Shown here: one piece after another, positions 3,069-59,255 of the stretch
Layout of the letters: the number at the start of each line of letters is the position of its first letter
Position numbering within the stretch: the first letter of the stretch is position 1
From: Dokdonia pacifica
Lineage (GTDB): Bacteria > Bacteroidota > Bacteroidia > Flavobacteriales > Flavobacteriaceae
DNA: 64,000 bases
Assembly: GCF_900188275.1 (NCBI RefSeq)
Contig: NZ_FZNY01000001.1
Span: 1,054,001 to 1,118,000 of the forward strand
Direction of reading: 5' to 3'
Position numbers and translations under genes: made by a program
The notes under the pieces: model-generated
Told to the model about the DNA's origin: nothing
Database searches by the model: none
Seen by the model: only the letters and a program-made list of their open reading frames with translations

Positions 3069-3082
3069 GCTTTCGCGAAAGC
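3069..3082. repeat. Iterated palindrome GCTTTCGCGAAAGC, copy 1
   Basis: Perfect 14-bp palindrome, followed by GTAC. It lies between the queD start codon and the stop of the 34-residue ORF. Confidence 0.95.
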
Positions 3083-3088
3083 GTACTA

Positions 3089-3193
3089 TTAACGCTTTCT
3101 ATTCTTAATTTTATTGTATAAAAATACGATAATTAATACGAGTGCCAGTATTAGGAATAAACCGCTTCCACTCAAAAAACTCAAAAAGTCCAT
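3089..3193 (-). CDS. 34-residue single-pass membrane peptide
   Basis: Small ORF between trpS and queD on the minus strand, starting MDFLSFLSGSG. A hydrophobic run (about residues 11-26) is followed by a basic tail YNKIKNRKR, giving a clean single-pass topology with a positive-inside end. This is unlikely by chance in such AT-rich DNA. It has its own ATG and stop and fills the otherwise empty trpS-queD gap. No Shine-Dalgarno sequence is seen, which is normal for this phylum. The function is unknown. I judged it by composition and topology only. Confidence 0.55.
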   Translation of the reverse strand: MDFLSFLSGSGLFLILALVLIIVFLYNKIKNRKR

Positions 3194-3257
3194 ATGATAA
3201 AATTATTTTTAACTATGAGGTTATATACTTTCTTTTAATTTCTGTTCTACTATTTAA

Positions 3258-4229
3258 TTAATATCCTACCACTTTTCGTACTCTAGACAAGACATCATTT
3301 GCAACTATTCTTGCTTTTTCTGCTCCAATAGCAAGCGCCTTGTCTATCTCATTTAAATTTGCCATATAGTGATTATAACGCTCTCGTTGTGTTGCGTACC
3401 TATCAATAATGAGTTCGAAAAAAGCTTGTTTTGCATGACCATATCCATAATTACCACCTTCATAATTTGCACGCATCTCAGTAATCTGCTCTGGAGAGGC
3501 AATAAGTTTATACAATGCAAATAGATTACACGTGTCAGGATTTTTAGGCTCTTCTAAGGGTGTACTATCCGTTTGGATGCCCATGATTTGCTTGCGTAAT
3601 TTCTTATCTGGCTGAAAAATATCAATAATATTGCCTTTAGATTTACTCATTTTGCCTCCATCTGTTCCAGGAACATACATGGTATCTTCATTATGCTTTA
3701 CCTCTGGCATAACAAATATTTCCTTCCCTGTAGTGGCATGAAAACGATTTGCTACATCTCGCGTCATTTCTAAATGTTGCGCTTGATCTTTCCCTACAGG
3801 AACAATCTCTGCATCATATAAAAGAATATCTGCTGCCATTAACATAGGATATGTAAATAGTCCAGAGTTTACATCTTCCAAGCGATCTGCTTTGTCTTTA
3901 AAACTATGCGCAAGTGTTAGTCTTTGATATGGAAAAAAGCAACTTAAATACCAAGAAAGTTCTGTTACTTGAGGAATATCACTTTGTCTATAAAATACTG
4001 TCTTTTCTATATCTAGTCCAAAAGCTAACCAAGTAGCTGCAGTACTATAAGTGTTCTGTCTTAAAATATCCCCATCTTTAATTTGAGTAAGCGAATGCAT
4101 ATCTGCAATAAAAAGAAAAGATTCATTGCCGGGTGCATTTGCCATTTGAATTGCTGGAATGATTGCTCCTAATAAGTTGCCTAAGTGAGGCGTTCCTGTG
4201 CTTTGTACACCTGTTAAAATTCTTGCCAT
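3258..4229 (-). CDS. trpS: Tryptophanyl-tRNA synthetase
   Basis: Class I aminoacyl-tRNA synthetase of 323 residues that charges tRNA-Trp. The HIGH-type motif is GTPHLGNLLGA near residue 12, and the KMSKS motif is GGKMSKSKGN near 192. SGLFTYPMLMAADILLY and VPVGKDQAQHLE are characteristic of TrpRS. Length is normal for the bacterial enzyme. It is transcribed away from plsC, and their shared upstream region carries inverted repeats. Confidence 0.97.
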   Translation of the reverse strand: MARILTGVQSTGTPHLGNLLGAIIPAIQMANAPGNESFLFIADMHSLTQIKDGDILRQNTYSTAATWLAFGLDIEKTVFYRQSDIPQVTELSWYLSCFFPYQRLTLAHSFKDKADRLEDVNSGLFTYPMLMAADILLYDAEIVPVGKDQAQHLEMTRDVANRFHATTGKEIFVMPEVKHNEDTMYVPGTDGGKMSKSKGNIIDIFQPDKKLRKQIMGIQTDSTPLEEPKNPDTCNLFALYKLIASPEQITEMRANYEGGNYGYGHAKQAFFELIIDRYATQRERYNHYMANLNEIDKALAIGAEKARIVANDVLSRVRKVVGY

Positions 4230-4299
4230 ACTAATAACCTACAAAAGTAGGTGTCACATTATATAATTATTATTTGATCTAGACACATTCTGTAAGATT

Positions 4300-4370
4300 A
4301 TGCCTAGTTTTTACAGCAAAGTTACTTTTTTCTAGGCATAGGCTACTACCTTTTGCCTATTTTTGAGGCA
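4300..4370. promoter_or_regulatory. trpS/plsC intergenic inverted repeats and TATTTTTG box
   Basis: ATGCCTAG (4300-4307) and CTAGGCAT (4332-4339) form a perfect 8-bp inverted repeat. A second pair, TGCCT (4354-4358) and AGGCA (4366-4370), directly abuts the plsC ATG. The second pair brackets TATTTTTG (4359-4366), which matches the Bacteroidota -7 element TAnnTTTG. Used as a promoter, it would put transcription start at or just after the ATG at 4371. The arrangement is seen directly; a regulatory role is inference. Confidence 0.4.
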
Positions 4371-5114: not shown

Positions 5115-5128
5115 TATATTAAAAAGAA

Positions 5129-5153
5129 AAGGCGTCGTAACCAGCGACGCCTT
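5129..5153. terminator. Bidirectional intrinsic terminator
   Basis: AAGGCGTCG (5129-5137), a 7-base loop, then CGACGCCTT (5145-5153). On the minus strand the stem is followed by TTCTTTTT, so it best ends the minus-strand gene whose stop is at 5229. On the plus strand it follows plsC. Confidence 0.85.
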
Positions 5154-5228
5154 CTTGTAATTATTGCAAGATTTTGCAACAACTAACCTAACCAACTAAA
5201 AAACTAACCTAACGGCAAGTATTCTTTT

Positions 5229-7848: not shown

Positions 7849-8856
7849 CTATTCGTTTGAAACTTTAATGGCTTCGTGAATTTTAGTTTCTAATTCTTCC
7901 ATAAGATCAGGATTGTCTAACAGCAATGCCTTTACTGCGTCTCGACCTTGACCTAATTTAGTGTCTTGATAACTGAACCAAGAACCGCTTTTCTTGACTA
8001 TTTCATAATTTACACCTATATCTATAATCTCACCTACTTTAGAGACTCCTTCTCCATACATAATATCAAACTCAGCCATTCTAAATGGAGGTGCTACTTT
8101 ATTTTTGACAACTTTTACTCGGGTTTTATTTCCTATAACATTCGAGTTGCTGTCTTTAATTTGAGTAGATCTTCTTATATCTAAACGTACAGAGGCGTAA
8201 AATTTTAATGCGTTTCCTCCAGTCGTTGTTTCTGGATTACCGAACATCACCCCTATCTTTTCACGTAATTGATTAATAAATATAACTGTACAGTTGGTTT
8301 TACTAATGGATCCCGTAAGCTTACGTAAAGCTTGTGACATTAATCGAGCATGTAATCCCATTTTAGAATCACCCATCTCTCCTTCTATCTCGCTTTTAGG
8401 TGTTAAAGCAGCAACAGAATCAATAACTATAATATCAATAGCTCCTGAGCGTATCAGGTTATCTGTAATTTCTAATGCTTGCTCTCCATTATCTGGTTGT
8501 GATATGATGAGGTTTTCTATATCTACATTTAATTTTTCTGCATAAAAACGATCAAAAGCATGTTCTGCATCAATGAAAGCAGCAATTCCTCCTGCTTTTT
8601 GAGCTTCGGCTATAGCATGTAGTGTCAAGGTTGTTTTTCCAGAAGATTCTGGTCCATATATTTCAATAATACGTCCTCGAGGATATCCTCCTACTCCTAA
8701 AGCAACATCTAATCCTAAAGACCCTGTAGGAATAGCTTCTACATCTACAATAGCTTGATCTCCCATCTTCATTACGGCTCCCTTACCATATGTTTTGTCT
8801 AGTTTGTCTAGGGTAAGTTGTAATGCTTTTAATTTTGCATCTTTTTCACTACTCAT
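7849..8856 (-). CDS. recA: Recombinase RecA
   Basis: 335-residue RecA, the strand-exchange ATPase of homologous recombination and SOS co-protease. Walker A GPESSGKT is at about residues 68-75 and Walker B is in [32 protein letters not shown] is the conserved DNA-binding loop region, and [12 protein letters not shown] is typical. The start is the ATG at 8856 ([12 protein letters not shown]). The frame stays open to 8958, but that extension runs through the promoter and a palindrome copy and has no RecA similarity. Confidence 0.98.
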
Positions 8857-8891
8857 TTTCTTCTCTGTTTTGAATTCTAAAAATTGGATAG

Positions 8892-8922
8892 TAAAAGTAG
8901 GGTTTCTATTTGAAGGGGGCAA
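8892..8922 (-). promoter_or_regulatory. Probable recA promoter
   Basis: On the minus strand TTG (8922-8920), 20 bases, then TACTTTTA (8899-8892). This fits the Bacteroidota -33 TTG / -7 TAnnTTTG pattern and gives a leader of roughly 30 bases. No LexA-type site was recognised. The iterated palindrome lies six bases upstream. Confidence 0.55.
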
Positions 8923-8927
8923 GGTAC

Positions 8928-8941
8928 GCTTTCGCGAAAGC
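8928..8941. repeat. Iterated palindrome GCTTTCGCGAAAGC, copy 2
   Basis: Perfect copy preceded by GTAC, just upstream of the probable recA promoter. Confidence 0.95.
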
Positions 8942-9059
8942 ATAATATTTTTTAACAAAAAAAATACGCAACCCTTTTCTTTTTTGAAAGTCTACTTCAT
9001 GAGAAGTAATATTAAAAATGAGTTTACAACGAATTAAATACAATAAAATCCAGCTTAAA

Positions 9060-11912: not shown

Positions 11913-13217
11913 ATGGCGTGTGGAAATTGTGGAACAGGGGCTGATGGGCAACCAAAGGGTTGTAAAAATAATGGCACTTGTGGAACAGATGGATGTAATA
12001 AACTTACCGTTTTTGATTGGCTTTCAAACATGACTATTCCAGAGGGTCAAGAAGCATTTAATTATATAGAAGTCCGTTTTAAAAATGGACGTAAAAACTA
12101 TTACAAAAACACTGAAAACTTAACGTTAAGCATTGGAGACATTGTTGCTACTCAAGCAGCATCAGGACATGATATAGGAATGGTTACACTTACAGGAGAG
12201 CTTGTTCGTGTGCAGATGAAACGCAAAAAAGTTAAGCAAGACACGGAAGATACCTTAAAAGTATATCGAAAAGCAACTCAAAAGGATATTGATATCTGGA
12301 CAAAAGCTAGAGATCGAGAAGAACCAATGAAGGTAAAAGCTCGTCAAATAGCTATCCGATTGGAATTACAAATGAAAATTTCAGATATCGAGTTTCAGGG
12401 AGATGGATCAAAAGCCACTTTTTATTATACCGCCGAAGATCGTGTAGACTTTAGACAACTTATCAAAGAATTTGCACAGGAGTTTAGAACTCGTATTGAA
12501 ATGCGACAAATTGGACTGCGTCAAGAAGCCTCTAGATTAGGAGGAATTGGATCTTGTGGTCGTGAGTTATGTTGCTCTACTTGGTTAACAGATTTTAGAT
12601 CGGTTACCACTGGAGCTGCTAGATACCAACAACTATCACTTAATCCTCAAAAACTTGCTGGTCAATGTGGGAAGCTTAAATGTTGTCTTAACTATGAGTT
12701 AGACGCATATATGGATGCCTTAAAAGAATTTCCTAAAACAGAGGTCAAATTATATACAGAAAAAGGAACTGCTGTATGCCAAAAAATAGATATTTTCCAA
12801 GGGTATTTATGGTATGCTTACGAAGGAGAGTGGATGAACTGGCATAAACTCACTGCAGCTCAAGCTAATGAGATAATTGCATCAAACAAAGCAAAAGAAC
12901 CTGTTGCGAGTCTTGAGGAATATTCTTCAGAACTCGTATTGGACACTAAAATTGACTTTGGAAACGTTGTAGGACAAGATAGCCTTACGCGATTTGATAA
13001 ACCAAAAACAACAAACAAACGTCGAAACAACCGAAATCGAAACAAAAAACGCGCAACAGCTACCGCCAACAATAAAACAAATCAAAAGAAAACCGCTCAA
13101 AAAAACAACCAAAATAAAGCGGATTCAAAAAAGTCAGCTCAAAAAGAAAACACAAACGCCAAACGATCTAATAATAGACGTAATAGATCAAAAAAGAAGC
13201 CTAATAACAATGCATAA
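11913..13217 (+). CDS. ricT: PSP1/RicT-family cysteine-rich regulatory protein
   Basis: 434-residue PSP1-domain protein of the RicT (YaaT) family. In Bacillus this is part of an iron-sulphur Ric complex affecting RNA maturation. The N-terminus has clustered cysteines (CGNCGTG, CKNNGTCGTDGC). The conserved core includes GGIGSCGRELCCSTW and GQCGKLKCCLNYE, both typical cysteine pairs. From about residue 365 the tail is a low-complexity N/K/R/Q-rich stretch, probably disordered and nucleic-acid binding. Its end overlaps the gldH start by eight bases. RicT's role in Bacteroidota is not established; the family assignment is firm. Confidence 0.88.
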   Translation: MACGNCGTGADGQPKGCKNNGTCGTDGCNKLTVFDWLSNMTIPEGQEAFNYIEVRFKNGRKNYYKNTENLTLSIGDIVATQAASGHDIGMVTLTGELVRVQMKRKKVKQDTEDTLKVYRKATQKDIDIWTKARDREEPMKVKARQIAIRLELQMKISDIEFQGDGSKATFYYTAEDRVDFRQLIKEFAQEFRTRIEMRQIGLRQEASRLGGIGSCGRELCCSTWLTDFRSVTTGAARYQQLSLNPQKLAGQCGKLKCCLNYELDAYMDALKEFPKTEVKLYTEKGTAVCQKIDIFQGYLWYAYEGEWMNWHKLTAAQANEIIASNKAKEPVASLEEYSSELVLDTKIDFGNVVGQDSLTRFDKPKTTNKRRNNRNRNKKRATATANNKTNQKKTAQKNNQNKADSKKSAQKENTNAKRSNNRRNRSKKKPNNNA

Positions 13218-13692
13218 AGTAGCCATACTTTTACTGCTTGTGGTCATGATGACCTCTTGTGATCCTAACCGTGTATATGACAATTATGAAACGGTAAGTA
13301 ATGGTTGGAATATAAATGATTCCATCCAATTTGAGATTTCTGACGTAGATAGTATAACACCACATAATGTATTTATTACATTACGTAACACAAATGCCTA
13401 TAAATACAGTAACATATTTCTTATCGCAAAAATGGATTTTCCAAATGGTAAACAGCTTACAGACACCCTTGAGTATGCCATGGCTACACCTGAAGGAAAA
13501 TGGTTAGGAACTGGATTTAATGACATAAAAGAAAATAAGTTATGGTATGAAGAAGGGGTACGCTTTCGCGAAAGCGGCACCTACAACTTTTCCATAAAGC
13601 ATGCAGTACGTAAAAATGGAAGCATCAGTGGTGATGAACGTTTAGAAGGAATTACAGAAGTAGGATTGCGTATAGAACGCTCTCAAAAATAA
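13210..13692 (+). CDS. gldH: Gliding motility lipoprotein GldH
   Basis: 160-residue lipoprotein; the signal peptide ends in MMTSCD. GldH is required for gliding in Flavobacterium and is part of the gliding/T9SS accessory set. Features include a DSIQFEI strand region, DFPNGKQLTDTLEYAMA and the conserved GKWLGTGFNDIKENKLWYEEG. The start at 13210 overlaps the end of ricT by eight bases; an upstream in-frame extension has no signal peptide and reads through ricT. A palindrome copy is embedded in the coding sequence at 13562-13575 and encodes RFRES. The neighbours ricT and PBP1A are the usual flavobacterial ones. Confidence 0.93.
   Translation: MHKVAILLLLVVMMTSCDPNRVYDNYETVSNGWNINDSIQFEISDVDSITPHNVFITLRNTNAYKYSNIFLIAKMDFPNGKQLTDTLEYAMATPEGKWLGTGFNDIKENKLWYEEGVRFRESGTYNFSIKHAVRKNGSISGDERLEGITEVGLRIERSQK
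13562..13575. repeat. Iterated palindrome GCTTTCGCGAAAGC, copy 3 (in gldH)
   Basis: Perfect copy inside gldH, preceded by GTAC; translated as RFRES in this frame. Confidence 0.95.
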
Positions 13693-16054: not shown

Positions 16055-16083
16055 AACCCTATCTTTTTTGATAGGGTTTTTTT
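16055..16083 (+). terminator. Intrinsic terminator of the ricT-gldH-PBP operon
   Basis: AACCCTATC (16055-16063), a T6 loop, GATAGGGTT (16070-16078), then a T run. A palindrome copy begins three bases later. Confidence 0.88.
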
Positions 16084-16085
16084 AT

Positions 16086-16099
16086 GCTTTCGCGAAAGC
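16086..16099. repeat. Iterated palindrome GCTTTCGCGAAAGC, copy 4
   Basis: Perfect copy followed by GTAC, between the PBP terminator and the scoA promoter region. Confidence 0.95.
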
Positions 16100-16145
16100 G
16101 TACTCCCCTCTAATTTTTGTATTTTTAGTTCAAATTACAAGAACA

Positions 16146-16847
16146 ATGATCACAAAGAAAGTAGACGGGGTCCAAAATGCCTTACAAGGAGTAAAAAGCG
16201 GAATGACAATGATGCTTGGAGGTTTTGGATTAAGTGGTATTCCAGAAAATGCTATCGCAGAACTCGTGCGTCTTAATATAAATGAACTCACCTGTATCTC
16301 TAATAATGCTGGAGTAGATGATTTTGGACTCGGATTATTACTTCAAAAACGGCAAATCAAAAAAATGATTTCTTCTTATGTGGGAGAAAATGCTGAGTTT
16401 GAAAGACAAATGCTTAGTGGAGAACTTGATGTAGAGCTTATCCCCCAAGGAACACTTGCAGAGCGATGTAGAGCTGCTCAAGGTGGTTTTCCAGCATTTT
16501 ATACCCCTGCAGGATATGGCACTGAAGTTGCCGAAGGAAAGGAAACACGCGAGTTTAATGGAAAAATGCATGTATTAGAATATGCCTTTGATGCAGATTT
16601 TGCCTTTGTAAAAGCATGGAAAGGAGATACCGCTGGAAATCTTATTTTTAAAGGAACTGCTCGAAATTTTAACCCAAATATGTGTGGCGCTGCCAAAATT
16701 ACTGTGGCAGAAGTAGAAGAGCTTGTTCCTCCAGGAACCCTAGATCCTAATCAAATACATATTCCAGGCATTTTTGTACAACGGATTTTTCAAGGAGAAC
16801 ACTATGAAAAACGAATCGAACAACGAACCGTTAGACAAAAAAAATAA
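16146..16847 (+). CDS. scoA: 3-oxoacid CoA-transferase subunit A
   Basis: 233-residue alpha subunit of succinyl-CoA:3-ketoacid (acetoacetate) CoA-transferase, used in ketone-body or branched amino-acid catabolism. [19 protein letters not shown] near the N-terminus is the conserved CoA-transferase family I glycine-rich signature; [19 protein letters not shown] is typical of subunit A. The ATG at 16146 gives the normal family start; an extension to 16068 would run through the terminator and palindrome. It is followed 38 bases later by scoB. A TAATTTTTG box upstream may be the promoter. Confidence 0.94.
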
Positions 16848-20344: not shown

Positions 20345-20801
20345 ATGTTTCAAAATTACACATTAATTTATGGTATTCTGTCGATAAAAGCAGTAGCACT
20401 TTCTTTATTTTAAAAAATATCCCATCTCTTTTAAGATAAAAACTCAAATATTTCTGTGTTCGCTTTCGCGAAAGCGTAATTTTCATGCAAAAATCCTTAA
20501 AAAAAGAGTTTTTACCATAAGAATTACTTTTTAAACTACATAATTGCCATAAGAAAAAACTATAGCTCATAGATAATTAACATATTTCATTTTTAGCGCT
20601 TTTTTTTCCTTTTTAAACCTAATTTATTTTCTCGTTTTTCTACTCATTCCGCTTTAAACAAGCTTTTTCCTCTTCATTTAGTTTGTTTTAGAAGCAAGCC
20701 TTTTGTTGCCATAATATTGCAGTGTCAAAATAATCGAACGCATTTACAATTCGATTTACAAAACTGAATTAAGAAAAAAACAATATCAAAAAAATTTAAA
20801 A
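20345..20801. promoter_or_regulatory. Divergent intergenic region, with hairpin in the spondin leader
   Basis: This 457-bp AT-rich gap between divergent genes has no credible ORF. It holds palindrome copy 5 (20462-20475). Toward the plus-strand gene are TTTTGTTG (20701-20708) and TAATATTG (20712-20719), a possible but closely spaced promoter. A perfect inverted repeat follows, AATCGAA (20732-20738) and TTCGATT (20750-20756), in the presumed 5' leader. Promoter assignment is weak; the repeats are seen directly. Confidence 0.4.
20462..20475. repeat. Iterated palindrome GCTTTCGCGAAAGC, copy 5
   Basis: Perfect copy extended to CGCTTTCGCGAAAGCG, in the ABC ATPase/spondin intergenic region. Confidence 0.95.
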
Positions 20802-22581: not shown

Positions 22582-25500
22582 ATGAAAAAAAACTACCTAA
22601 GAGGACTCTCTTTAGGATTGGCATTATGCGCAACACAAGTATATGCACAAACGCCAAACCAAATCGCACAAATCACCAAAGAAAACAATCAGGAACGTCT
22701 TGCTCAACTAGAACAACAATTTCTACAAGTAAGCGCTCAACAACGCCAATTTGCAAAGCAACAAGCTTCTCAAAAAGGAATCCCTACACAAATTACATTA
22801 GATAACGGAGGGATTGCTGAGCTACAACGTATCCTTCCTGACGGAACCCCTATTTACTATAGCACTTTTAATGCAGATGCTGCAATTTCTACTAGAACAA
22901 CACACATTAATGCTGGAGGTTCATTAGGTTTAAACTTAATGGGTCAAAATATGACAGCATATGTATGGGATGGTGGTCATGCAAGAGCATCTCACCAAGA
23001 GTATGACGGAGCAGGAGGCACAAATCGCTACACAGTTCAAGATGAAGCTAGTGAAGGCATTCAACTTAATTTTCATGCTGCGCACGTAACAGGAACTATT
23101 ATGGCTTCTGGAGTTCAAGCTGAAGCTCAAGGAATGGCTCCACATGCAAAAATTAACGGATACCGTTGGAATGATGATGTAGCAGAAGCAACTGCCGCTG
23201 CTAGCAACGGAATGCTTATTTCTAATCACTCTTATGGATTATTAGGAACTAATATTCCAGACCAATGGTTTGGATCTTATTCTAGTGAGTCTCAGAGCTG
23301 GGATGAAATTATGTATAACGCACCTTTTTACCTTATGGTTGCCGCTGCAGGTAATGAAGGAAATATAAACACATACAACGGTGCTCCTTTAGGAGGAAAT
23401 GCTGCTTATGATAAACTTACTGGAAAAGCTATTACAAAAAACAACCTTGTCGTAGCAAATGCTCAAGATGCTACTATCGCAGCCGATGGCTCTCTAATAA
23501 ATGTAAATATAAACAGCGGAAGTAGTGAAGGTCCTACTGATGATTTCCGTATCAAACCAGATATTGCTGGTAACGGTACAGAAGTATATTCTACATACCA
23601 AAACAGTGATACAGCTTATAATTCTATTACAGGAACGTCTATGGCGTCTCCAAATGTAATGGGATCATTGTTATTAATACAACAACATTATAATGATGTG
23701 AATGGCGCTTTCGCGAAAGCGGCTACATTAAAAGGACTTGCTTTACACACAGCAGATGATGCCGGAGCAATTGGTCCTGACGCTATCTTCGGATGGGGAT
23801 TATTAAATGCAAAAAGAATGGCAGAAACAATTACTGCCAATGGAACAACTACTACCATTGATGAACGCACATTAGCAGATGGTGGATCATACCAAACACA
23901 AGTTACTGTACCAGCGGGTAAAATTTTACAAGCATCTATTTCTTGGACAGATGCTCCAGGAACTCCAGTAACAGGAACAAATGATCCTACACCAGTACTT
24001 ATTAATGACCTTGACTTACGTATTACTAAAGATGCAGACACATTCATGCCATGGAGATTAACTGGTGTAGACTCAAATGCAAAACAAGATAACGTAGTAG
24101 ATCCATATGAACGTGTAGATGTTGCTGATGCAGATGGAACATATACAGTTACCGTAACTCATAAAGGAAGTTTATTCTCTGGAAGTCAAAATTACTCCCT
24201 TATCATAACAGTAATAGATACTCCAGTAGAGCCAGACAATAGCTGTGTAGCAGAAGTAACTGCTTTCCCTTACAGTCAAGGCTTTAATAACACTATTGGA
24301 CAGTGGTCTCAAGATACTAATGATGATTTTAACTGGACAGTAAATAGCGGAACTACTCCTTCTAATAGTACAGGACCTTCGGGAGCTGTAGAAGGGTCTC
24401 ATTATATATATATGGAGACTTCAAATCCTAACAATCCTGCAAAAGTAGCTAACTTAAACTCTCCTTGTTTTGATTTTACGGGAATGACAGAAGCACATGC
24501 TACTTTCCAATATCAAATGACAGGAAATGCAGTAGGTACTATTCGTTTAGAAGCAAGTACTAATAGCGGTATCTCATGGACAGAAGTATGGTCTAAATCT
24601 GGAGATCAAGGAGCGAGCTGGCAAAATGCTATCGTAAACTTAGATGCTTATACAGGAGGTACTCTTACATTGAGATTTAATGGAACGTCAGGAAACTCTT
24701 GGCAAGGTGATATTGCTATAGATGACCTAAGAATTGCTGAAGGAGCATTTGCAGATACAGTAGCACCTTCTACACCTATTAATTTGATAGCATCAAATAT
24801 AACAGAGACTACAGTTGATTTGTCTTGGGATGCTTCTACAGATAACGTTGGTGTAACTGAATATGATGTATATGTAGATGGGTTAATTTCTACAACTGTT
24901 GTTGGAACAACATCACAAATACAAGGTCTTGTTCTTGACACTACTTATGATTTTCAAGTTCGTGCAAAAGATGCAGCAGCTAATGCTTCTACATTAAGTA
25001 ACACACTTACTATAACTACAGCTGGTGGTATACCTACTGGATGTGTAGGAGGAGAAGCAATTCCTTACTCTGAAGGATTTGAAACAAGTATTGGTTTATG
25101 GACGCAATCTACCAATGATGATATTAATTGGACTAGAGATGCAAATGGAACACCTTCAAGAAGTACAGGTCCATCAAGCGCATCTGAAGGTGCTTACTAT
25201 ATGTATGTAGAAGCATCAGGTAACGGAACTGGATTTCCAAATAAACAAGCAATTATTAACTCTCCGTGTCTTGACTTAACAGGATCTTCTGTAATCAATT
25301 TCTCTTTTGATTATCATATGTATGGATCTTCTAATGGAGGAAGTATTGCCTTAGAAATTAGTGATGATGATGGTGCTAATTGGACAGCTATATGGACACA
25401 AACTGGAAATCAAGGTAATCAATGGAATACTGTATCGCTAGATTTATCTTCATATGCAGGTATAGGAATCCAACTTAGATTTAATCGTATCACTGGAGGA

Positions 25501-25854
25501 ACTTGGCAATCTGATGTCGCTATTGATAATATTTCTCTTGATTCAAGTGCTACGAACGTAACAAATTCTAATGAAGAAAGTATTTTGACTTCTTCAACAA
25601 CAGAAGAAAATATATCAATTGAAGAATCATTTGACTTTACTGTATTCCCTAATCCAGTAACTAGAGGACAACTTTCTATTCAAGTTGTAGGAGCAGATGT
25701 AGAGAAGTACACAATCTATAATATGCTAGGTCAAATTGTAAAATCAGGATCATTTAATAACACATTAGATGTTTCTGGACTTAAAGCTGGGATGTATATT
25801 ATTGAAGTTGCTACAGGTAGTGAAGCGCACACCAAGCGATTTGTTAAAAAGTAA
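22582..25854 (+). CDS. Secreted subtilisin-like S8 peptidase, MAM-FN3-MAM, T9SS-sorted
   Basis: 1090-residue exported peptidase. The signal peptide ends near TQVYAQ and is followed by a helical propeptide. The S8 domain has Asp130 in AYVWDGGHARASH, His168 in FHAAHVTGTI and Ser353 in GTSMASPN. A prohormone-convertase-like beta domain follows, then a MAM-like domain (about 555-715), FN3 (about 725-812), a second MAM-like domain (about 815-990), and a type A T9SS sorting domain (FTVFPNPVTRG to KRFVKK). It should digest extracellular protein. A palindrome copy at 23707 encodes AFAKA. It resembles the next S8 gene throughout but is clearly diverged from it at DNA level. Confidence 0.93.
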   Translation: MKKNYLRGLSLGLALCATQVYAQTPNQIAQITKENNQERLAQLEQQFLQVSAQQRQFAKQQASQKGIPTQITLDNGGIAELQRILPDGTPIYYSTFNADAAISTRTTHINAGGSLGLNLMGQNMTAYVWDGGHARASHQEYDGAGGTNRYTVQDEASEGIQLNFHAAHVTGTIMASGVQAEAQGMAPHAKINGYRWNDDVAEATAAASNGMLISNHSYGLLGTNIPDQWFGSYSSESQSWDEIMYNAPFYLMVAAAGNEGNINTYNGAPLGGNAAYDKLTGKAITKNNLVVANAQDATIAADGSLINVNINSGSSEGPTDDFRIKPDIAGNGTEVYSTYQNSDTAYNSITGTSMASPNVMGSLLLIQQHYNDVNGAFAKAATLKGLALHTADDAGAIGPDAIFGWGLLNAKRMAETITANGTTTTIDERTLADGGSYQTQVTVPAGKILQASISWTDAPGTPVTGTNDPTPVLINDLDLRITKDADTFMPWRLTGVDSNAKQDNVVDPYERVDVADADGTYTVTVTHKGSLFSGSQNYSLIITVIDTPVEPDNSCVAEVTAFPYSQGFNNTIGQWSQDTNDDFNWTVNSGTTPSNSTGPSGAVEGSHYIYMETSNPNNPAKVANLNSPCFDFTGMTEAHATFQYQMTGNAVGTIRLEASTNSGISWTEVWSKSGDQGASWQNAIVNLDAYTGGTLTLRFNGTSGNSWQGDIAIDDLRIAEGAFADTVAPSTPINLIASNITETTVDLSWDASTDNVGVTEYDVYVDGLISTTVVGTTSQIQGLVLDTTYDFQVRAKDAAANASTLSNTLTITTAGGIPTGCVGGEAIPYSEGFETSIGLWTQSTNDDINWTRDANGTPSRSTGPSSASEGAYYMYVEASGNGTGFPNKQAIINSPCLDLTGSSVINFSFDYHMYGSSNGGSIALEISDDDGANWTAIWTQTGNQGNQWNTVSLDLSSYAGIGIQLRFNRITGGTWQSDVAIDNISLDSSATNVTNSNEESILTSSTTEENISIEESFDFTVFPNPVTRGQLSIQVVGADVEKYTIYNMLGQIVKSGSFNNTLDVSGLKAGMYIIEVATGSEAHTKRFVKK
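23707..23720. repeat. Iterated palindrome GCTTTCGCGAAAGC, copy 6 (in S8 gene)
   Basis: Perfect copy in coding DNA of the S8 domain; read as AFAK(A). Confidence 0.95.
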
Positions 25855-34986: not shown

Positions 34987-37200
34987 CTAGCTTCCTATGA
35001 TCTCAATTGCTTTTTCTATGAGTTCATCTCTTCCTTCTTTGATTCCTTTTATCGTTGGTTTTACTTCAATATCTGGAACGATACCCACCCGTTGGGTAGG
35101 AGAACCATCTGGATAAAATACACCTATTCCAGAAATCATAGTTCGTAAACCTCCAGGCAATAAAATACTAGACACATTCCCATCTGCGCCAGCAGTTGTA
35201 CTACCTATAATCGTACTATTAGGAGCTGCTCTAAATGCCATAGCTGTATATTCTGCTTGACTTTGACTCAGTTCATTTACTAAAACTACTACTTTCCCTT
35301 TGAATTTGTCTTTTGCTATGTTGCCTGCGCCTATCATTAAAGGGGAGCCCATAACAAACTCACCTGGGTTTTTAAGATTAGGTCGTGTAAATTTCACAAA
35401 CTCTGTTCCTCTTGGAGCAATAAATTGACCTAGTGCAAAAGGCATAAATGCAGAAGGATAGTTTCTAATATCAATGATGATTCCTTTACAATTAAGAAAC
35501 TCTTTTGAGATAGATTTTGGATCTTCTCGTGTAATGTTTGCTAATGTAATATACCCGATATTATCCGGGAGCATTTTATAGCTTTTTACACCATCTTCAG
35601 GCTCTCTATACCAGCCGTAAATATCCAATTCCTTCCTTTCGTACAATGGCATCTTTATTTTAATTTCTTTTCCATCTCTCAAAACAGTTAGATCAAGAGA
35701 TTCTCCATCTCCCTTAAGTATCTCTGATGAAATATCCCTCATTCTTGCCTCATGATTGGATGCAGGATAATACGGAATTTTCTCTTCTATTATTTTTGAA
35801 GCAGGAACTCCTTTTATTGCTATAATAGCATCCCCTAATTCTAAATCAAGAGAAGATTTCATTTCTGGATTATAAAAATCTACAACAACTAATTTGTTTT
35901 CTATAAATTGAATATGTACAGGAGGGAATTTACTTCCTTTTGTAGCTTCCCATTGATCATCTCCTCCCCATAAATTAGCATGCGTATCTTTGATATCTCC
36001 TATAAGTTGAAGTGCAGCAATTTCATACTCTAATTCATTTTTTGCGTTTATAAATTGAGGAATATATTCTCCTAAAACAGCATTCCAATCTTTATCCATC
36101 ACATCTTTATAAGGAAAATAATAATGTATCATATTCCAATATCTATAAAGTGATAATAATCGAAAACCCGTATCGGGATATTTCATAGATGCGTATGTAT
36201 TCTCATTAGAAAATACAGGATTACCAACACGCGGCGTTTTATCTATATAATAATGTTTCCCTTGATATCTATTTATATAAATATATTGAAGTCGTTCTTG
36301 TAAAGCTTCAGAAATACCATTTGATGCCATCCATGCATTATCTGGCTTTAAATACGCTTCATCATCTGTTTCTTTACATTTTTTACACTTAGGAATAGTA
36401 CCATAACTATCTATCCATTTGAGGATACGTTGGTCTCTTTCTGAGTCCGCTTTCGCGAAAGCGATATCTTCCATAACCCTAAATAATTCATAGTCCCAAT
36501 TAATATCTCCTATAGCGACTGCTGGGTGATGGTACTTAAGAAAACCCCAAACCTTTCCTAATACTGTAAGATTTTTAAGTTGTTGTGTTGTAGGTTTGGA
36601 TATAGAAAACTGAGACCCTTCATCAAAAGCAGTGTCTTTTTGAGCTCCAGATAGCTTTTTAGGAGGTGCCTTATCAAGAGATTTGCCATCTACGGTTACC
36701 TCCAAATCATCTATCCATATTTTTCCTTTTCCAACAAGAATTCCTCCTACTACTATATTTGTAGCTTCATTAGGTTTTAAATCAAGTTCTATTTCATATT
36801 TCTTCCAATCTGTAGATCCTTTAATCCCTCTATTGTTCATATTGTCAAAACCAACTTGGGGATCAATACGCATCCATAAACCACCATATCCATCAGATAC
36901 ATTTTCTGTCTTTACATACCCTGTAAGCTTTATTTTTTTTCCTCCAAAAGTTGCTGGAATCGTAAATCCCCAAGCACTAAAGTCTTTTCCTTTTTTTATA
37001 CTTTCTATAGAGGCTGAATAGTTACCTTGTTTTACAACCGTAGAATCAATATTTACTTTGTAATCATCTCCTCCAAAACTGTTCCATTGTGATGGTTTAT
37101 TTTCAGAGATTTGTTCAAAATCTAAATTAAGCGTTGGAGTTTGTTGTGCAGAAACAATACTGGCAATAAATATTGCGAAATAAAATATAGTTATTCTCAT
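34987..37200 (-). CDS. S41-family peptidase with N-terminal carbohydrate-binding-like domain
   Basis: 737-residue exported protein; the signal peptide ends near ASIVSAQ. Residues about 22-175 form a beta-sandwich of the kind found in carbohydrate-binding or galactose-binding modules. A tail-specific protease (S41) region follows from about 200, with a PDZ-like section (LELGDAIIAIKGVPASKII). The C-terminal catalytic core contains KGIIIDIRNYPS, VVVLVNELSQSQAEYTAMAF (Ser nucleophile region) and IGSTTAGADGNVSSI. A cysteine pair CKKCKE sits near 276. A palindrome copy at 36449 encodes AFAKA. The substrate is unknown. Confidence 0.87.
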   Translation of the reverse strand: MRITIFYFAIFIASIVSAQQTPTLNLDFEQISENKPSQWNSFGGDDYKVNIDSTVVKQGNYSASIESIKKGKDFSAWGFTIPATFGGKKIKLTGYVKTENVSDGYGGLWMRIDPQVGFDNMNNRGIKGSTDWKKYEIELDLKPNEATNIVVGGILVGKGKIWIDDLEVTVDGKSLDKAPPKKLSGAQKDTAFDEGSQFSISKPTTQQLKNLTVLGKVWGFLKYHHPAVAIGDINWDYELFRVMEDIAFAKADSERDQRILKWIDSYGTIPKCKKCKETDDEAYLKPDNAWMASNGISEALQERLQYIYINRYQGKHYYIDKTPRVGNPVFSNENTYASMKYPDTGFRLLSLYRYWNMIHYYFPYKDVMDKDWNAVLGEYIPQFINAKNELEYEIAALQLIGDIKDTHANLWGGDDQWEATKGSKFPPVHIQFIENKLVVVDFYNPEMKSSLDLELGDAIIAIKGVPASKIIEEKIPYYPASNHEARMRDISSEILKGDGESLDLTVLRDGKEIKIKMPLYERKELDIYGWYREPEDGVKSYKMLPDNIGYITLANITREDPKSISKEFLNCKGIIIDIRNYPSAFMPFALGQFIAPRGTEFVKFTRPNLKNPGEFVMGSPLMIGAGNIAKDKFKGKVVVLVNELSQSQAEYTAMAFRAAPNSTIIGSTTAGADGNVSSILLPGGLRTMISGIGVFYPDGSPTQRVGIVPDIEVKPTIKGIKEGRDELIEKAIEIIGS
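36449..36462. repeat. Iterated palindrome GCTTTCGCGAAAGC, copy 7 (in S41 gene)
   Basis: Perfect copy in coding DNA; read on the minus strand as AFAKA. Confidence 0.95.
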
Positions 37201-47442: not shown

Positions 47443-48030
47443 TTATTGACTCTTCAGCAACTTTTCTATGACTATAGGAAAGTGTTCATGTTCTAATTGA
47501 TGCACTTTTTGAGCAATGGTTTCAGGAGTATCCTCTTGGGTAACTTCTACTTTTTCCTGAAAGATATATGCACCTTTATCATATTCAGGAGTTACCTTAT
47601 GAATCGTTATTCCTGTAAAGGTTTTTTTTCCTTTATGCGCTTTCGCGAAAGCGTAAACAGCCTCATGAACATGCTTTCCATACATACCTTTACCCCCAAA
47701 ATCAGGTAATAATGCTGGATGAATGTTTATAATTTGGTCTGGAAACAGATTTATTATTTTTTCTGGAAAAAGCCATAAAAAACCTGCTAGCACAATTAAA
47801 TCTGGTTGCGTTGCTTGTAAAAGATGTACAATATCATCTGTTTCATAAAGCGCTGTTCTGTTAAAACTAATCGCACTAATTTTACTCTTATTTGCGCGTT
47901 CTAAAACTTTGGCACCCTTGTTGTTACTGAGCACTTGCACGACTTGAGCATCCGTACGACCCTTAAAATGATTAATGATACGTTGGGCATTTGTACCGTT
48001 CCCTGAAGCAAAAATTACAATACGTTTCAT
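47443..48030 (-). CDS. purN: Phosphoribosylglycinamide formyltransferase
   Basis: 195-residue folate-dependent GAR transformylase, third step of purine synthesis. FASGNGTNAQRII at the start binds the phosphate of GAR. LAGFLWLFPE, NIHPALLPDFGGKGMYG (catalytic His and neighbours) and TGITIHKVTPEYDKGAYI (catalytic Asp) are the standard motifs. A palindrome copy at 47639 falls in a surface stretch and encodes AFAKA. It is transcribed divergently from acpP. Confidence 0.94.
   Translation of the reverse strand: MKRIVIFASGNGTNAQRIINHFKGRTDAQVVQVLSNNKGAKVLERANKSKISAISFNRTALYETDDIVHLLQATQPDLIVLAGFLWLFPEKIINLFPDQIINIHPALLPDFGGKGMYGKHVHEAVYAFAKAHKGKKTFTGITIHKVTPEYDKGAYIFQEKVEVTQEDTPETIAQKVHQLEHEHFPIVIEKLLKSQ
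47639..47652. repeat. Iterated palindrome GCTTTCGCGAAAGC, copy 8 (in purN)
   Basis: Perfect copy in coding DNA; read on the minus strand as AFAKA. Confidence 0.95.
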
Positions 48031-55040: not shown

Positions 55041-55164
55041 AATAAACAGGTTTTAGTTAAACAATTTATTATGGAAACACATATAACGTGCCATTATTTT
55101 AATTGATTATGTTAAAAAATTGATAATAATTCAAAATTTTAACTTAAAACGATCAAATAATTAA

Positions 55165-57393
55165 TTAAAATTGAAAACCAATAGCAATAAACCACTCTCC
55201 CGCCTTTACTTCAGGACTGTATGTATACTTCAATTCAAGCGGACCCAAAAAGGTATCCATGCCGTACCCTAATGCATATCCAGTAAAATCAGGACTTGTA
55301 AGCCACTCTTCAGAAGTAAAAAGATTATACCCTGCATTTGCAATATTTACACCTATATTCAAATGATTTTTTTTAAGAAACTCATAATCTATAGAAAACC
55401 CTGCTTTTACATATCCATCTCCAGCAACACTTATAAAATCATATCCATAAAAAGGAACTAGATTATTGATCTTTTTATTGCCATACCCACCTAGAAAAAA
55501 ATCAAGAGATCGCACATCTTCTCCTCCTATTTTAAATCCCCCACTTATTTCTGATAGAAATGTCCATTTTTTAGCAATACTTGCTGCATACAAGAAATAG
55601 GCATTTGCAATAGAAAACTCAGTAAAATTATCATTGAAGTCTGAAGAAAAAAGGGTTAAATCAAAATCGCCATCAAAATACACTCCTGATTTAGGAAAAT
55701 ATCTATTGTCTAAAGAGTCATATCGCAACTGTCCATAAGCTCCAAAAAAATGACTCTTTTCAAAAACAGAGCCAGGGATATCATCATCATCGTCTACAGT
55801 TTCTGTTTCTACATCCAAGAACTTATGCTGGACACCTAAATCTAAAGAAAATTGTTTTACAAATAATGTCTGTAGATAAAGCTGATTAGTGATATCTTGA
55901 TAATCTAATGTAACTCTACTAAGCCCTGTTAAATCAGCACTGCTCACTTCCTCTACAAGTCGGGCGCTTACCCCCTTTTCAAAATTATTATACGTAGATC
56001 TTATCCCTACACTCCAATAATAACCCTTATCTATATAGTAATTAAAAGCATATCGGATATTATCTCCTATAATAAGATCAAACGTAGCAATATCATTATC
56101 AAAAAGAATGCGTTTTCTTGTATAATTTACAAGCGCTGCGCTTCGATATAAATCATCATAATGTAACCCTAAACCTATAGACTGCTTACTTTTAGATTCT
56201 TGAACATCTATCTTTAATAATGTGCCTTCTGGAATGGGCTTAAAACGATGCCCTATACGATCAAAATTTGCTGTTGCCGCAAGATTATTAATTCCATTAC
56301 TGAAACGTTCATAATCTAATGTAACTGGCGGATCTAATTGTAATTTTCCTAAGATGTAAGAACGTGTATAATCTTTATTTCCACGTATCACAACAGCATC
56401 TATTTTGATACTATCCTTTAGTTTAGGTTCCTCTATACGCTTTCGCGAAAGCGTACGCTGTTTTGTCGCAATTTCTTTTAACGCATCAAATTGTTTTAAG
56501 GCTTCAGTCTCTCCACGATCAATAATCACATTAGCTTGATCAAAATCTACCACACTAAAATCTTTGATATCAGGCCGTATATACACATCTGTACTATCTC
56601 GCTTACCTTCCATTTCCTTTATAGTACGGTAGTTATTAATCTGTAAAAAAATATCTGGAGCCGTCGTAAGCTTGTCTCTCTTACGAAGTCCGTCTTGTAC
56701 ATCTATTCCTATGATAACATCAACTCCTTTGGCGCGAAGTTCGTTGATGGGATAATTGTTTAAAACTCCCCCATCTATAAGGATTCTGTCTCCTAAAGTA
56801 ACAGGTTTAAATAACGTAGGAAGTGCACCACTTGCACTTATGGCTTCTGGTAAAAAACCGGTGTCTAAAATTACTTGTTCTGCTTTTTCTATATCAGTAG
56901 CAACACAAAAAAATGGAATAGGTAATTGTGTAAAATCATTGGTGTCGCTTACATGTTCCAGAAGTCGAATCAATAGATTATAGGTATTCTGCCCTTTAGA
57001 AATAGATTGTGGGAGTGATAATTTAAAATTATCAAAGGGTAATGAAACGGCATACTTCTCTGATGCTTCTTTTTCATAAAATGTCTTTGCCTTACGTGGC
57101 AACTCATCTTGAATGATTTTATCAAAATCTACTGCTCTAAAAAGAGAGTCTAATTGCGTTGCACTATATCCAGAAGCGTATAACCCTCCTACAATAGCAC
57201 CCATACTTGTTCCAGCAACATAATCTACTCGTACACCTGCCTCTTCTAATACTTTAAGTACACCCACATGTGCAAGCCCTTTTGCACCACCACCACTCAA
57301 CACAACACCCACTTTAAGGTCTTGTTCATGAGTTACCTGAGCACTTAAAGAAAGCACACAAAACAACAACAAAAATGTAAGTTTTAGTTTCAC
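55165..57393 (-). CDS. Patatin-like phospholipase with BamA-type barrel
   Basis: 742-residue exported protein (signal peptide ending near LSAQV). The patatin domain (about 27-300) has the oxyanion loop SGGGAKGLAHVG, nucleophile Ser63 in GTSMGA and catalytic Asp in LIDGGVLNNYP. A POTRA-like segment (about 330-400) and an Omp85/BamA-type 16-strand barrel follow, ending in IAIGFQF. It resembles PlpD-type autotransported phospholipases. The start is a GTG whose G is shared with the uvrC stop (TAGTG), so its translation depends on uvrC. A palindrome copy at 56439 encodes LSRKR. Confidence 0.9.
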   Translation of the reverse strand: MKLKLTFLLLFCVLSLSAQVTHEQDLKVGVVLSGGGAKGLAHVGVLKVLEEAGVRVDYVAGTSMGAIVGGLYASGYSATQLDSLFRAVDFDKIIQDELPRKAKTFYEKEASEKYAVSLPFDNFKLSLPQSISKGQNTYNLLIRLLEHVSDTNDFTQLPIPFFCVATDIEKAEQVILDTGFLPEAISASGALPTLFKPVTLGDRILIDGGVLNNYPINELRAKGVDVIIGIDVQDGLRKRDKLTTAPDIFLQINNYRTIKEMEGKRDSTDVYIRPDIKDFSVVDFDQANVIIDRGETEALKQFDALKEIATKQRTLSRKRIEEPKLKDSIKIDAVVIRGNKDYTRSYILGKLQLDPPVTLDYERFSNGINNLAATANFDRIGHRFKPIPEGTLLKIDVQESKSKQSIGLGLHYDDLYRSAALVNYTRKRILFDNDIATFDLIIGDNIRYAFNYYIDKGYYWSVGIRSTYNNFEKGVSARLVEEVSSADLTGLSRVTLDYQDITNQLYLQTLFVKQFSLDLGVQHKFLDVETETVDDDDDIPGSVFEKSHFFGAYGQLRYDSLDNRYFPKSGVYFDGDFDLTLFSSDFNDNFTEFSIANAYFLYAASIAKKWTFLSEISGGFKIGGEDVRSLDFFLGGYGNKKINNLVPFYGYDFISVAGDGYVKAGFSIDYEFLKKNHLNIGVNIANAGYNLFTSEEWLTSPDFTGYALGYGMDTFLGPLELKYTYSPEVKAGEWFIAIGFQF
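56439..56452. repeat. Iterated palindrome GCTTTCGCGAAAGC, copy 9 (in patatin gene)
   Basis: Perfect copy followed by GTAC; read on the minus strand as LSRKR, a different frame from the AFAKA copies. Confidence 0.95.
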
Positions 57394-59186
57394 TACTTTG
57401 TATGATAATGATTATAAATTATAGCCGCTTTTGAGGTTCCCACTACTTCTGTAAGGCTTTTTTTACTTGCTTCTTTTACTTTAGAAACCGATCTGTAATG
57501 TTTCAACAATGTAACAATTGTTTTTTCTCCTATTCCTGAGATTTCTTCTAGTTCTGTACCTAACGCAGCATTGCTTCTTTTATTTCTATGAAAAGTGATT
57601 CCAAAGCGATGGGCCTCATTACGTAATTGTTGTATAATTTTAAGGCTTTCTGTTTTTTTATCCAGGTATAATGGAATACTATCCCCTGGATAGTAAATCT
57701 CTTCCAGTCGTTTTGCAATACCTACAATAGCTATTTTGCCTCGTAACCCTAATGTTTCTAACGCTTTTAAACCACTAGAGAGCTGTCCTTTTCCTCCATC
57801 TACGATAATGAGCTGCGGTAGCGGTTCGTCCTCTTCAAGTAGTCTTTTGTAACGTCTAAAAACCACCTCTTCCATACTTGCAAAATCATCGGGTCCTTCT
57901 ACTGTTTTTATATTAAACTTGCGATAGTCTTTTTTGCTGGGTTTTCCATTTTTAAAAACTACACAAGCGGCTACAGGATTTGTTCCTTGTATGTTAGAAT
58001 TATCAAAACATTCTATATGTCTAGGCTCTTCAGAAAGTCTTAAATCTACTTTCATCTGTGCCATAATTCTATTGGTATGTCGGTCTGGATCTACAATTTT
58101 AGTTTGTTTAAAACGCTCCATTCTATAGTACTTTGCATTGCGTTCTGAAAGTTCTAAGATGCGTTTTTTATCCCCTAATTTAGGGATCGTTACCTTTATT
58201 GAATCTCCTAGGTCAACTTCAAAAGGCACATAAATCTCTTTAGATTGTGAATCAAATCGCTGCTGAATTTCTATGATTCCTATTTCTAGCAATTCTTTAT
58301 CTGTCTCGTCAAGTCGTTTTTTAAGTTCTAGCGTATGAGATCTAATAATAGCCCCATGTGATAATTGTAAAAAATTCACATACCCATAGCCTTCATCACT
58401 AATAATAGAAAACACATCTACATTGGTGATTTTAGGGTTTACAACGGTACTTTTTGCTTGGTAATTTTCAAGAATGTCTAATTTTTCTTTAATGCGTTGT
58501 GCTTCCTCAAACTCCATAGCGGCCGCATGTTTTTGCATCTGGTTTTTAAACTGATGTAAGGATTCTTTAAAATCACCTCGTACTATCTGACGAATGTGTT
58601 CTACATGCTTGTGATAATCTTCTTCTGTTTGTTTTCCTTCACAACCTCCTTCACAATTACCAAGATGATATTCTAAACAAACTTTATATTTTCCAGCTTC
58701 TATCTTTTCTCTAGACAGATCATAATTACACGTTCTGAGCTTATATAGACTTTTAATAAGATCTAGTAAGATCTTTACTGTTTTCATGCTTGTATAAGGC
58801 CCGTAATACTCACTTCCGTCTTTAATTAAGCGTCGTGTAGGAAATACTCTAGGGAAACGCTCATTTTTTATACAAATCCATGGATAACTTTTATCATCTT
58901 TTAAAAGGACATTATATCGAGGTTGATATTTTTTAATCAGATTATTCTCTAGAAGCAATGCGTCGGTTTCTGTGGCCACTACAATATGACGTACTTCATG
59001 TATTTTTTTAACCATTGTACGAATACGACCATTATCAATAGTTTTATTAAAATACGAGAGCACTCTTTTCTTTAAATTCTTTGCCTTTCCTACATAAAGT
59101 AACTTCTCTTCTTTATCATAATACTGATAGATTCCAGGGCTTGTTGGGAGTGTTTTTAATTGTATGTCTAGTTGAGAAAGCTCCAT
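57393..59186 (-). CDS. uvrC: Excinuclease ABC subunit C
   Basis: 597-residue nucleotide-excision-repair nuclease that makes both incisions around lesions. The N-terminal GIY-YIG domain has SPGIYQYYDKEEKLLYVGKAK. A UVR (UvrB-binding) segment FEEAQRIKEKLDIL is near 215. The RNase H-like nuclease half has CFDNSNIQGTNPVAACVVF and IVDGGKGQLS. C-terminal helix-hairpin-helix repeats end near 590. The ATG at 59186 (MELSQLD) is preferred; an open upstream extension to 59339 crosses a palindrome copy and lacks UvrC similarity. Confidence 0.95.
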   Translation of the reverse strand: MELSQLDIQLKTLPTSPGIYQYYDKEEKLLYVGKAKNLKKRVLSYFNKTIDNGRIRTMVKKIHEVRHIVVATETDALLLENNLIKKYQPRYNVLLKDDKSYPWICIKNERFPRVFPTRRLIKDGSEYYGPYTSMKTVKILLDLIKSLYKLRTCNYDLSREKIEAGKYKVCLEYHLGNCEGGCEGKQTEEDYHKHVEHIRQIVRGDFKESLHQFKNQMQKHAAAMEFEEAQRIKEKLDILENYQAKSTVVNPKITNVDVFSIISDEGYGYVNFLQLSHGAIIRSHTLELKKRLDETDKELLEIGIIEIQQRFDSQSKEIYVPFEVDLGDSIKVTIPKLGDKKRILELSERNAKYYRMERFKQTKIVDPDRHTNRIMAQMKVDLRLSEEPRHIECFDNSNIQGTNPVAACVVFKNGKPSKKDYRKFNIKTVEGPDDFASMEEVVFRRYKRLLEEDEPLPQLIIVDGGKGQLSSGLKALETLGLRGKIAIVGIAKRLEEIYYPGDSIPLYLDKKTESLKIIQQLRNEAHRFGITFHRNKRSNAALGTELEEISGIGEKTIVTLLKHYRSVSKVKEASKKSLTEVVGTSKAAIIYNHYHTK

Positions 59187-59241
59187 ACTCAAAGATATAG
59201 ATTCTCTTGGATAGACGCTATGAGATATGCATAAAAAGTAC

Positions 59242-59255
59242 GCTTTCGCGAAAGC
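59242..59255. repeat. Iterated palindrome GCTTTCGCGAAAGC, copy 10
   Basis: Perfect copy preceded by GTAC in the uvrC/rimK divergent region. Confidence 0.95.

Follow-up and report, generated by a model that had tools for sequence, protein, structure and literature searches.

A dyad-symmetric DNA site of about 50 bp, consisting of a nearly always exact 14-bp core, GCTTTCGCGAAAGC, and degenerate arms of about 20 bp on either side, recurs throughout the genomes of Dokdonia. This Dokdonia-type palindrome is probably a mark of "self" for DNA uptake, recombination or chromosome organization, and many of its copies are old and have been retained, with turnover, by selection or drive at the level of DNA. 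Among the functions considered, a candidate signal that marks DNA as self during uptake or recombination, in the manner of the uptake sequences of Neisseria and Haemophilus, ranks first, followed by a nucleoid-protein site, a two-way Chi-like signal and HIP-type methylation; we advance the first of these tentatively, at somewhat less than an even chance.

The palindrome in the window and in the genome

The window, which is the whole 64-kb stretch of Dokdonia pacifica DNA analysed here, was described in a first-pass annotation as holding ten perfect copies of the palindrome, with far fewer than one expected by chance. All ten coordinates proved exact (Table 1), and the statement on chance is borne out: base composition predicts 0.0001 exact copies, which places the 14-mer about 157000-fold over expectation, and 100 dinucleotide shuffles yielded 0 copies. 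A longer unit had also been proposed, and seven of the ten copies do extend to the 16-mer CGCTTTCGCGAAAGCG. The GTAC flanks reported beside several copies are present, but they belong to an arm that is longer and degenerate and that most often reads TTAC/GTAA at intergenic sites of the Dokdonia genome G199. The count of five intergenic copies fits if the TTG-start ORFs 7849-8958, 16068-16847 and 57393-59339 begin too early, whereas a gene caller restricted to ATG starts gives three intergenic and seven genic copies. Several readings had been noted for the genic copies, which are found in all three reading frames, and we judge the accompanying view, that the target of selection is the DNA rather than the protein, to be right.

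Table 1. Copies of the 14-bp palindrome in the window and the gene used to anchor the orthologous-locus test
Feature	Position	Strand	Context
Palindrome copy 1	3069..3082		Exact match; intergenic, ORFs end at 3063 and start at 3258
Palindrome copy 2	8928..8941		Exact match; 5' end of TTG-start ORF 7849-8958 (-), possibly intergenic
Palindrome copy 3	13562..13575		Exact match; within ORF 12994-13692
Palindrome copy 4	16086..16099		Exact match; 5' end of TTG-start ORF 16068-16847, possibly intergenic
Palindrome copy 5	20462..20475		Exact match; intergenic
Palindrome copy 6	23707..23720		Exact match; within ORF 22582-25854 (large, secreted-looking), frame read as AFAKA
Palindrome copy 7	36449..36462		Exact match; within ORF 34987-37200 (C-terminal processing peptidases, weak match)
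Palindrome copy 8	47639..47652		Exact match; within ORF 47443-48030
Palindrome copy 9	56439..56452		Exact match; within ORF 55165-57393
Palindrome copy 10	59242..59255		Exact match; 5' end of uvrC in orthologous loci
uvrC (anchor)	57393..59339	-	TIGR00194, E 7e-156

A genome-wide count, set in advance as a test able to refute the pattern, found the exact 14-mer 903 times and its reversed control not once (5.52 Mb, 31 contigs). The objection that the motif might be confined to the window also fails, as it is abundant in other species and in other genera.

Taxonomic distribution

Each of 18 Dokdonia genomes carries 369-905 copies. Across the family, surveyed with one genome for each of 199 genera, any copy at all was found in 44, and dense coverage was limited to Dokdonia, G010 (578 copies) and G190 (408), with 17 and 16 copies in the next genomes. 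In a sample of 395 genomes from the order, none outside the family held more than two copies. Three dense flavobacterial genera against 196 sparse ones, each represented by a single genome, provide a comparative handle, and a protein common to the dense lineages should read the motif.

Sequence identity to named loci places two of the dense lineages near Dokdonia and Nonlabens, respectively: named Dokdonia loci share 93% identity with G199 and 71% with the window, and G010 is nearest to Nonlabens (75.5% over 8.9 kb, versus 71.9% to Dokdonia). G190, a genome of 46% GC and the sole member of its genus in the set, has an identity of 72.4% with Dokdonia and of 69.0% with Nonlabens across 7-8 kb, and a ParB tree held too little signal to place it. 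Among named genomes the 16-mer occurs in at least 102 stretches (at least 41 from Dokdonia, at least 41 from Nonlabens, at least 5 from Flavobacteria bacterium BBFL7 and at least 15 from others), in a scan from which records of the D. pacifica genome itself are possibly omitted. With 82 of the 102 matches listed belonging to Dokdonia or Nonlabens, the hosts differ from the cyanobacteria that carry HIP1.

Other dialects of the motif were sought in stretches of 11 sparse genomes chosen for holding it, where no other 12-mer palindrome exceeded two copies. Neither the 12-mer nor the 14-mer occurred in the literature searched, a scope outside which most subscription journals lie, searches of it on related topics listed no report of the motif, and the titles and abstract openings of texts containing the 10-mer pointed to no genome-motif report.

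Architecture of the core and arms

Sites were compared in 880 kb of G199 and 600 kb each of G010 and G190. Exact copies outnumber one-mismatch copies by 226 to 28, 116 to 13 and 81 to 19, respectively, and by 10 to 0 in the window; the core thus comes near to being all-or-none, and G190 is the least strict in this respect. On both sides, the strand that reads 5' to 3' towards the core is rich in GT and poor in C; C is scarce over some 20 bases 5' of the core and G scarce 3' of it, an effect that is strong in G199 and G010 and weak in G190. T is preferred at every third arm base, at intergenic and genic sites alike, and the same phase is present in coding copies of two other frames. In intergenic arms of G199, positions -1, -2, -3 and -4 are mostly C, A, T and T (92, 78, 86 and 72%, respectively), and those of G010 favour T at -4, -7, -10 and -13 (88, 63, 85 and 62%). 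Ranked among 495 choices of columns, the T phase came 1st at intergenic sites and 5th in frames 1 and 2 of G010, and 10th and 21st in the corresponding sets of G199. Arm scores showed no dependence on gene direction in G199, G010 or G190 and no clear effect of local GC skew in G199 or G010, and two G190 sites lie at positive local GC skew. The difference between left and right arm scores in G010 (7.6 and 6.5) was taken as noise.

The GT-rich, C-poor strands that enter the core from both sides recall Chi, which likewise recurs every few kb with a GT-rich strand. A resecting helicase-nuclease of the AddAB/RecBCD type might cease degradation at the site and load RecA there, onto the strand rich in GT; owing to its palindromic form, such a candidate bidirectional signal would be active from either side, for recombination or for self-protection. 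The spacing of Chi in E. coli, close to the 4-7.5 kb of the present sites, and the lack of the motif in two related phages whose annotations include ERF and YqaJ recombination domains are in line with this proposal. Known Chi sites, however, are short, single-stranded and oriented, whereas the Dokdonia motif is palindromic, with 14 bp and arms on both sides, and as a single strand could fold. RecA prefers TGG repeats, which resemble Chi, according to statements in PMC3763553, and the GT-rich arms fit that preference, but TGG is only moderately enriched in them (1.7 to 2.4-fold). On balance we consider a Chi-like signal of this kind unlikely.

Palindromy and the many intergenic copies would suit a spreading mini-element, a terminator or an RNA hairpin, and the arms of G199 sites pair slightly over chance at distance 2. 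In total, however, these arms pair no more than chance, and at distances 5, 6 and 8 they pair less often than chance would give, which argues against a long hairpin; hairpin and cruciform were both rejected. As to terminators, T lies on the 5' side and A on the 3' side, the reverse of intrinsic terminators, and the sites display neither a GC stem followed by a T run nor a preference for convergent gene ends. Together with the mini-element, which is considered below, these explanations are barely credible. The site is most simply viewed as double-stranded DNA read by a symmetric protein, the candidate reader.

Each site carries 33-44 bits of information, upper figures that count exact copies only and take the core as invariant, and 12-13 bits would suffice to mark as many places.

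Spacing and genomic placement

At about one site per 4-7.5 kb, the motif is spread with marked regularity. Four 200-kb blocks of G199 contain 56, 56, 48 and 46 copies (p 0.66, uniform), and the CV of the gaps is 0.69 in G199, 0.45 in G010 and 0.69 in G190. Gaps below 1 kb number 8 of 221, 0 of 110 and 0 of 80 in these genomes, where 50, 19 and 10 were expected; a simulation that keeps the intergenic bias (G199, 800 kb) gave a CV of 1.08, and the observed value was reached in 0 of 2000 runs. Per base, sites are in intergenic excess by 8.4-fold in G199, 5.7-fold in G010 and 1.9-fold in G190, as divided by our own gene calls with ATG starts only, and there is no preference for convergent or divergent gaps. 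Genic copies favour the frame read as AFAKA (57 of 96 in G199, 32 of 60 in G010 and 35 of 64 in G190). In one conserved case, shared by six Dokdonia genomes and G190, a copy 40 bp past the stop codon of parB encodes AFAKAQ, the apparent end of a signal peptide, but few frame-0 copies fall inside the first 35 codons (10 of 57, 6 of 32 and 3 of 35, respectively), and signal peptides thus account for only part of these copies.

A nucleoid or chromosome-organizing protein could produce such a layout if a lineage-specific dimer bridged, looped or loaded clamps once per few kb. The dyad symmetry over about 50 bp, the uniform coverage of the four chromosome blocks, the mutual repulsion of sites and their lack of any tie to gene direction are consistent with this explanation, as are the sites found in some phage-like contigs and a copy number not clearly linked to size among genomes of 2.9-5.5 Mb. 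The usual abundant sites of nucleoid proteins are unlike the present ones in excess information and sharpness, and both the surplus over 12-13 bits and the small number of degenerate copies count against it. The dense genomes tested also have neither a second ParB in common nor a ParB column that separates them from sparse ones. We hold a nucleoid site to be somewhat unlikely. Excess information, repulsion and permissive placement are, taken together, expected of biased uptake and gene conversion. Against a self signal maintained in that way stands the relation to genome size: among 12 Dokdonia genomes at least 99% complete, copy number shows no clear rise with size (rho 0.32, p 0.31) and motif density falls with genome size (rho -0.80), a combination not directly predicted by a drive model.

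Conservation and turnover at orthologous loci

A search of 18 genomes gave a uvrC ortholog in all but one, and at each of these 17 loci the core at the 5' end of the gene is exact. The copy within the ORF at 56439 is unaltered in 12 of 17 species and one substitution off in two more. Between the window and G213, 8 of 10 copies are kept; the copy at 47639 is one substitution off there, as it is in G215, and that at 36449 falls in an unaligned gap. Comparison of the window with G215 gave one copy kept, two found only in the window, each one substitution off in G215, and one found only in G215, and comparison with G199 gave three kept and one found only in G199. G199 in turn retains 15 of 19 mapped copies relative to G202 and 13 of 18 relative to G205. 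Within Dokdonia, 26 of 32 comparisons are exact (0.81, versus the 0.30 expected of a core diverging as fast as its flanks), in a tally that counts reciprocal pairs twice and scores shifted alignments as lost. Comparing Nonlabens loci with one another gave an exact core in 2 of 7 cases; the figures were 2 of 5 for Dokdonia against G190, 0 of 2 for Dokdonia against Nonlabens and 0 of 2 for G190 against Nonlabens. The unevenness of retention, with one copy kept between the window and G215 and the low fraction among Nonlabens loci, speaks against a self signal, as does the shape of divergence: in three alignments identity is 0.96-0.985 up to 7 bp from the centre and close to background farther out, with no gradient around the sites.

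Orthologous loci had been suggested as the means of telling insertion from mutation. Wherever the letters were readable, lost sites appeared as point variants or unrelated letters, most of them aligned without a gap; some other losses lie in unaligned gaps, and neither insertion junctions nor filled empty sites, the latter being what a MITE would leave, were seen at the loci compared. The losses thus look like substitutions rather than excisions, and the spreading mini-element once listed among candidate roles is rejected.

Search for a reader

No type IV pilus platform, second ParB or methyltransferase of three families, the last sought in 14 of the 20 dense genomes known, was universal in the dense lineages. 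PF00482, representing the pilus platform, is present in the D. pacifica genome and absent from G010 and G190, and the platform gene of the machine that accompanies DUS and USS is accordingly missing in two of the three dense lineages; a link to type IV pili was rejected. PF00482 also occurs in 38 of the 199 genera other than Dokdonia, none of them dense, which counts against a self signal. The import channel ComEC, likewise a feature of DUS and USS systems, was found in 14 of 14 dense genomes, but it does not discriminate, as 21 of 22 sparse genomes have it too.

Chromosomal ParB was found in 36 of 36 genomes tested. Second ParB matches occurred in two dense and four sparse genomes, G010 and G190 not among them, and ParB was rejected as the reader since no second copy is common to dense genomes. 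No column of a ParB alignment (8 dense, 22 sparse) separates dense from sparse, TTTCACGTGAAA appeared in no locus examined in this test, and no other palindrome near parB is shared as widely. The kinship with ParB and Noc sites put forward earlier holds for the form, TTTC-centre-GAAA, but is otherwise weak, there being no ParB paralog or column specific to dense genomes. Relative to parS and Noc sequences the half-sites of the Dokdonia motif lie one base nearer the dyad, and parS and Noc sites differ from its hundreds of evenly spread copies.

The palindromic centre, CGCG within TCGCGA, would suit a resident methylase that recognizes the core, with mismatch repair making and keeping the sites, and cyanobacterial HIP sites generally accompany cognate methylases in the account given in PMC4390886. 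Among the 14 dense genomes, however, PF00145 was found in 6, PF02086 in 9 and PF01555 in 2 over the cut-off (4 at E 0.001), so that each family is missing from some, and G204, with 808 copies, lacks all three. Outside the motif, TCGCGA reaches just 1.1 to 1.2 times the Markov expectation in G199, G190 and G010, and the 20-bp arms are unexplained by a mismatch model. The role of methylase target proposed at first is disfavoured on these grounds, and we regard methylation of the HIP1 type as improbable.

Relation to known systems and a proposed role

That the pattern is of the HIP1 or uptake-signal kind was rightly recognized at the outset. The site would function in the way an uptake sequence does and is similar to HIP1, GCGATCGC, yet it is a member of neither class, because the pilus and methylase features sought were not found throughout the dense lineages. 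HIP1, for which we know of no agreed function, and the alternate HIPs are likewise short palindromes far over chance, exactly repeated in great numbers both inside genes and outside them, and likely under selection on DNA. HIP1 differs in having 8 bp, versus 14 bp with 20-bp arms, and in being cyanobacterial and accompanied by methylases, whereas the Dokdonia motif belongs to Bacteroidota and no tested methyltransferase family is in all dense genomes. Its frequency, about one per kb in the passages cited (PMC4390886), also exceeds the one per 4-7.5 kb found here. With the DUS of Neisseria and the USS of Pasteurellaceae the Dokdonia motif shares its excess, a sharp core with weaker arms, even spacing, permissive places, strong conservation and a number of copies of about a thousand; it is palindromic, longer and sparser than they are, and the pilus platform gene is missing in two of the three lineages.

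To our knowledge, uptake sequences come from two proteobacterial families only, and we know of no palindromic example, which weighs against a self signal. We nevertheless incline, with less than even confidence, to an independently evolved Bacteroidota signal that would be palindromic and pilus-independent, with a putative dimeric receptor, and, if recombinational, would act as a two-way Chi-like site. A homodimeric protein peculiar to the dense lineages would bind the site as double-stranded DNA, and fragments bearing it would be favoured for import via ComEC, for RecA-dependent recombination, or for both. Its sequence could then spread by biased gene conversion until it stood once per few kb, the receptor being something other than a type IV pilin in at least some lineages. 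Such a mechanism would account for the regular spacing, the surplus of information, the sharp core and the lack of sites in two related phages whose host is of Nonlabens type.

Precedents exist for several of these features. Neisserial DUS are described in the relevant part of PMC2397512 as core-located, placed permissively and highly conserved, with a spacing that matches conversion fragments, and the H. influenzae USS as relatively evenly distributed, as expected from drive, in the statements cited from PMC7811141. Within Bacteroidota, Riemerella columbina is reported to prefer its own DNA, with no signal established for this preference (PMC7965970). The Dokdonia motif offers a test of sequence-biased natural transformation in this phylum.

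Phages and sparse genera

Two phages, named and assigned to a Nonlabens-type host as deposited, hold no copy of the motif in 71 kb, even when one or two mismatches are allowed. They are closely related, so that their absence of sites counts once, and the lack of an annotated integrase suggests that both are lytic. A BLAST search with the consensus against phage and plasmid collections returned only weak chance matches. Among viral contigs, 32 of 132 scored sites lie above zero, and one such contig has three copies and also shows matches to terminase, baseplate hub and transposase. Some phage-like contigs hold sites with proper arms, a point against a self signal.

In stretches of sparse genomes, the arm score exceeds 5 at 24 of 33 sites, whereas 6 of 6 matches from other phyla score negative, on a scale whose AT-rich background lowers the values of GC-rich genomes. 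We read the copies in sparse genera as islands moved from motif-rich hosts, and the motif seems to mark DNA that has passed from dense hosts to other genera. Locus L039 is an example: its copies lie in a region encoding proteins that appear, from their sequences, to be TolC-like, multicopper-oxidase-like and P-type-ATPase-like, and its pair of sites, 933 bp apart, recurs in G078, G087, G101, G160 and G076.

Motif copies in motif-sparse genera and on a phage-like contig

A stretch from a motif-sparse genus (L039) carries a motif pair spaced 933 bp apart, in a region whose encoded TolC-like, multicopper-oxidase-like and P-type-ATPase-like proteins, as read from sequence, give it a metal-resistance-like character. 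This pair is found again in regions of G078, G087, G101, G160 and G076, which represent several genera of Flavobacteriaceae, and the source of this type of region seems to have been a motif-rich host. G076, a genome with only 16 motif copies in total, also has ten of them clustered within 44 kb; this cluster probably represents a large island that came from a motif-rich donor.

Motif-bearing regions in motif-sparse genera
Region	Coordinates	Motif copies
Metal-resistance-like region	L039:115-8000	2
G076 cluster	G076:C3:32331-76110	10

Three copies were likewise found on the 38-kb phage-like contig IMGVR_UViG_3300039191_000362 (L234, L251, L256), which has matches to a terminase, a baseplate hub and a transposase; arm scores, which measure the fit of the flanks to the arm pattern, are near 10 for two of the three.

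Position and copy number in motif-dense genomes

A motif copy lies 40 bp past the parB stop at the same position in G190 and six Dokdonia genomes (L350, L356-L358, L360-L362), representing two genera that differ in GC content. This copy encodes AFAKAQ, which resembles the final residues of a signal peptide. Across Dokdonia genomes (2.9-5.5 Mb), copy number shows no clear tie to genome size, while the densest genome has 274 copies per Mb and the least dense 133.

Rare six-letter palindromes

Word counts over 880 kb of the Dokdonia genome G199 (L118-L157 and L367-L370) revealed 4 TCATGA and 17 TCCGGA, versus 189 and 351, respectively, in 600 kb of G190. G010 likewise has few TCCGGA (4 occurrences). 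Subword-based expectations for G199 are equally low (4.7 and 20.4), and some shorter word within these palindromes is therefore avoided, perhaps because of restriction. In the Nonlabens phages P12024S and P12024L (L423, L424), TCGCGA is absent against expectations of 3.7 and 3.8, and CGCG is depleted nearly four-fold.
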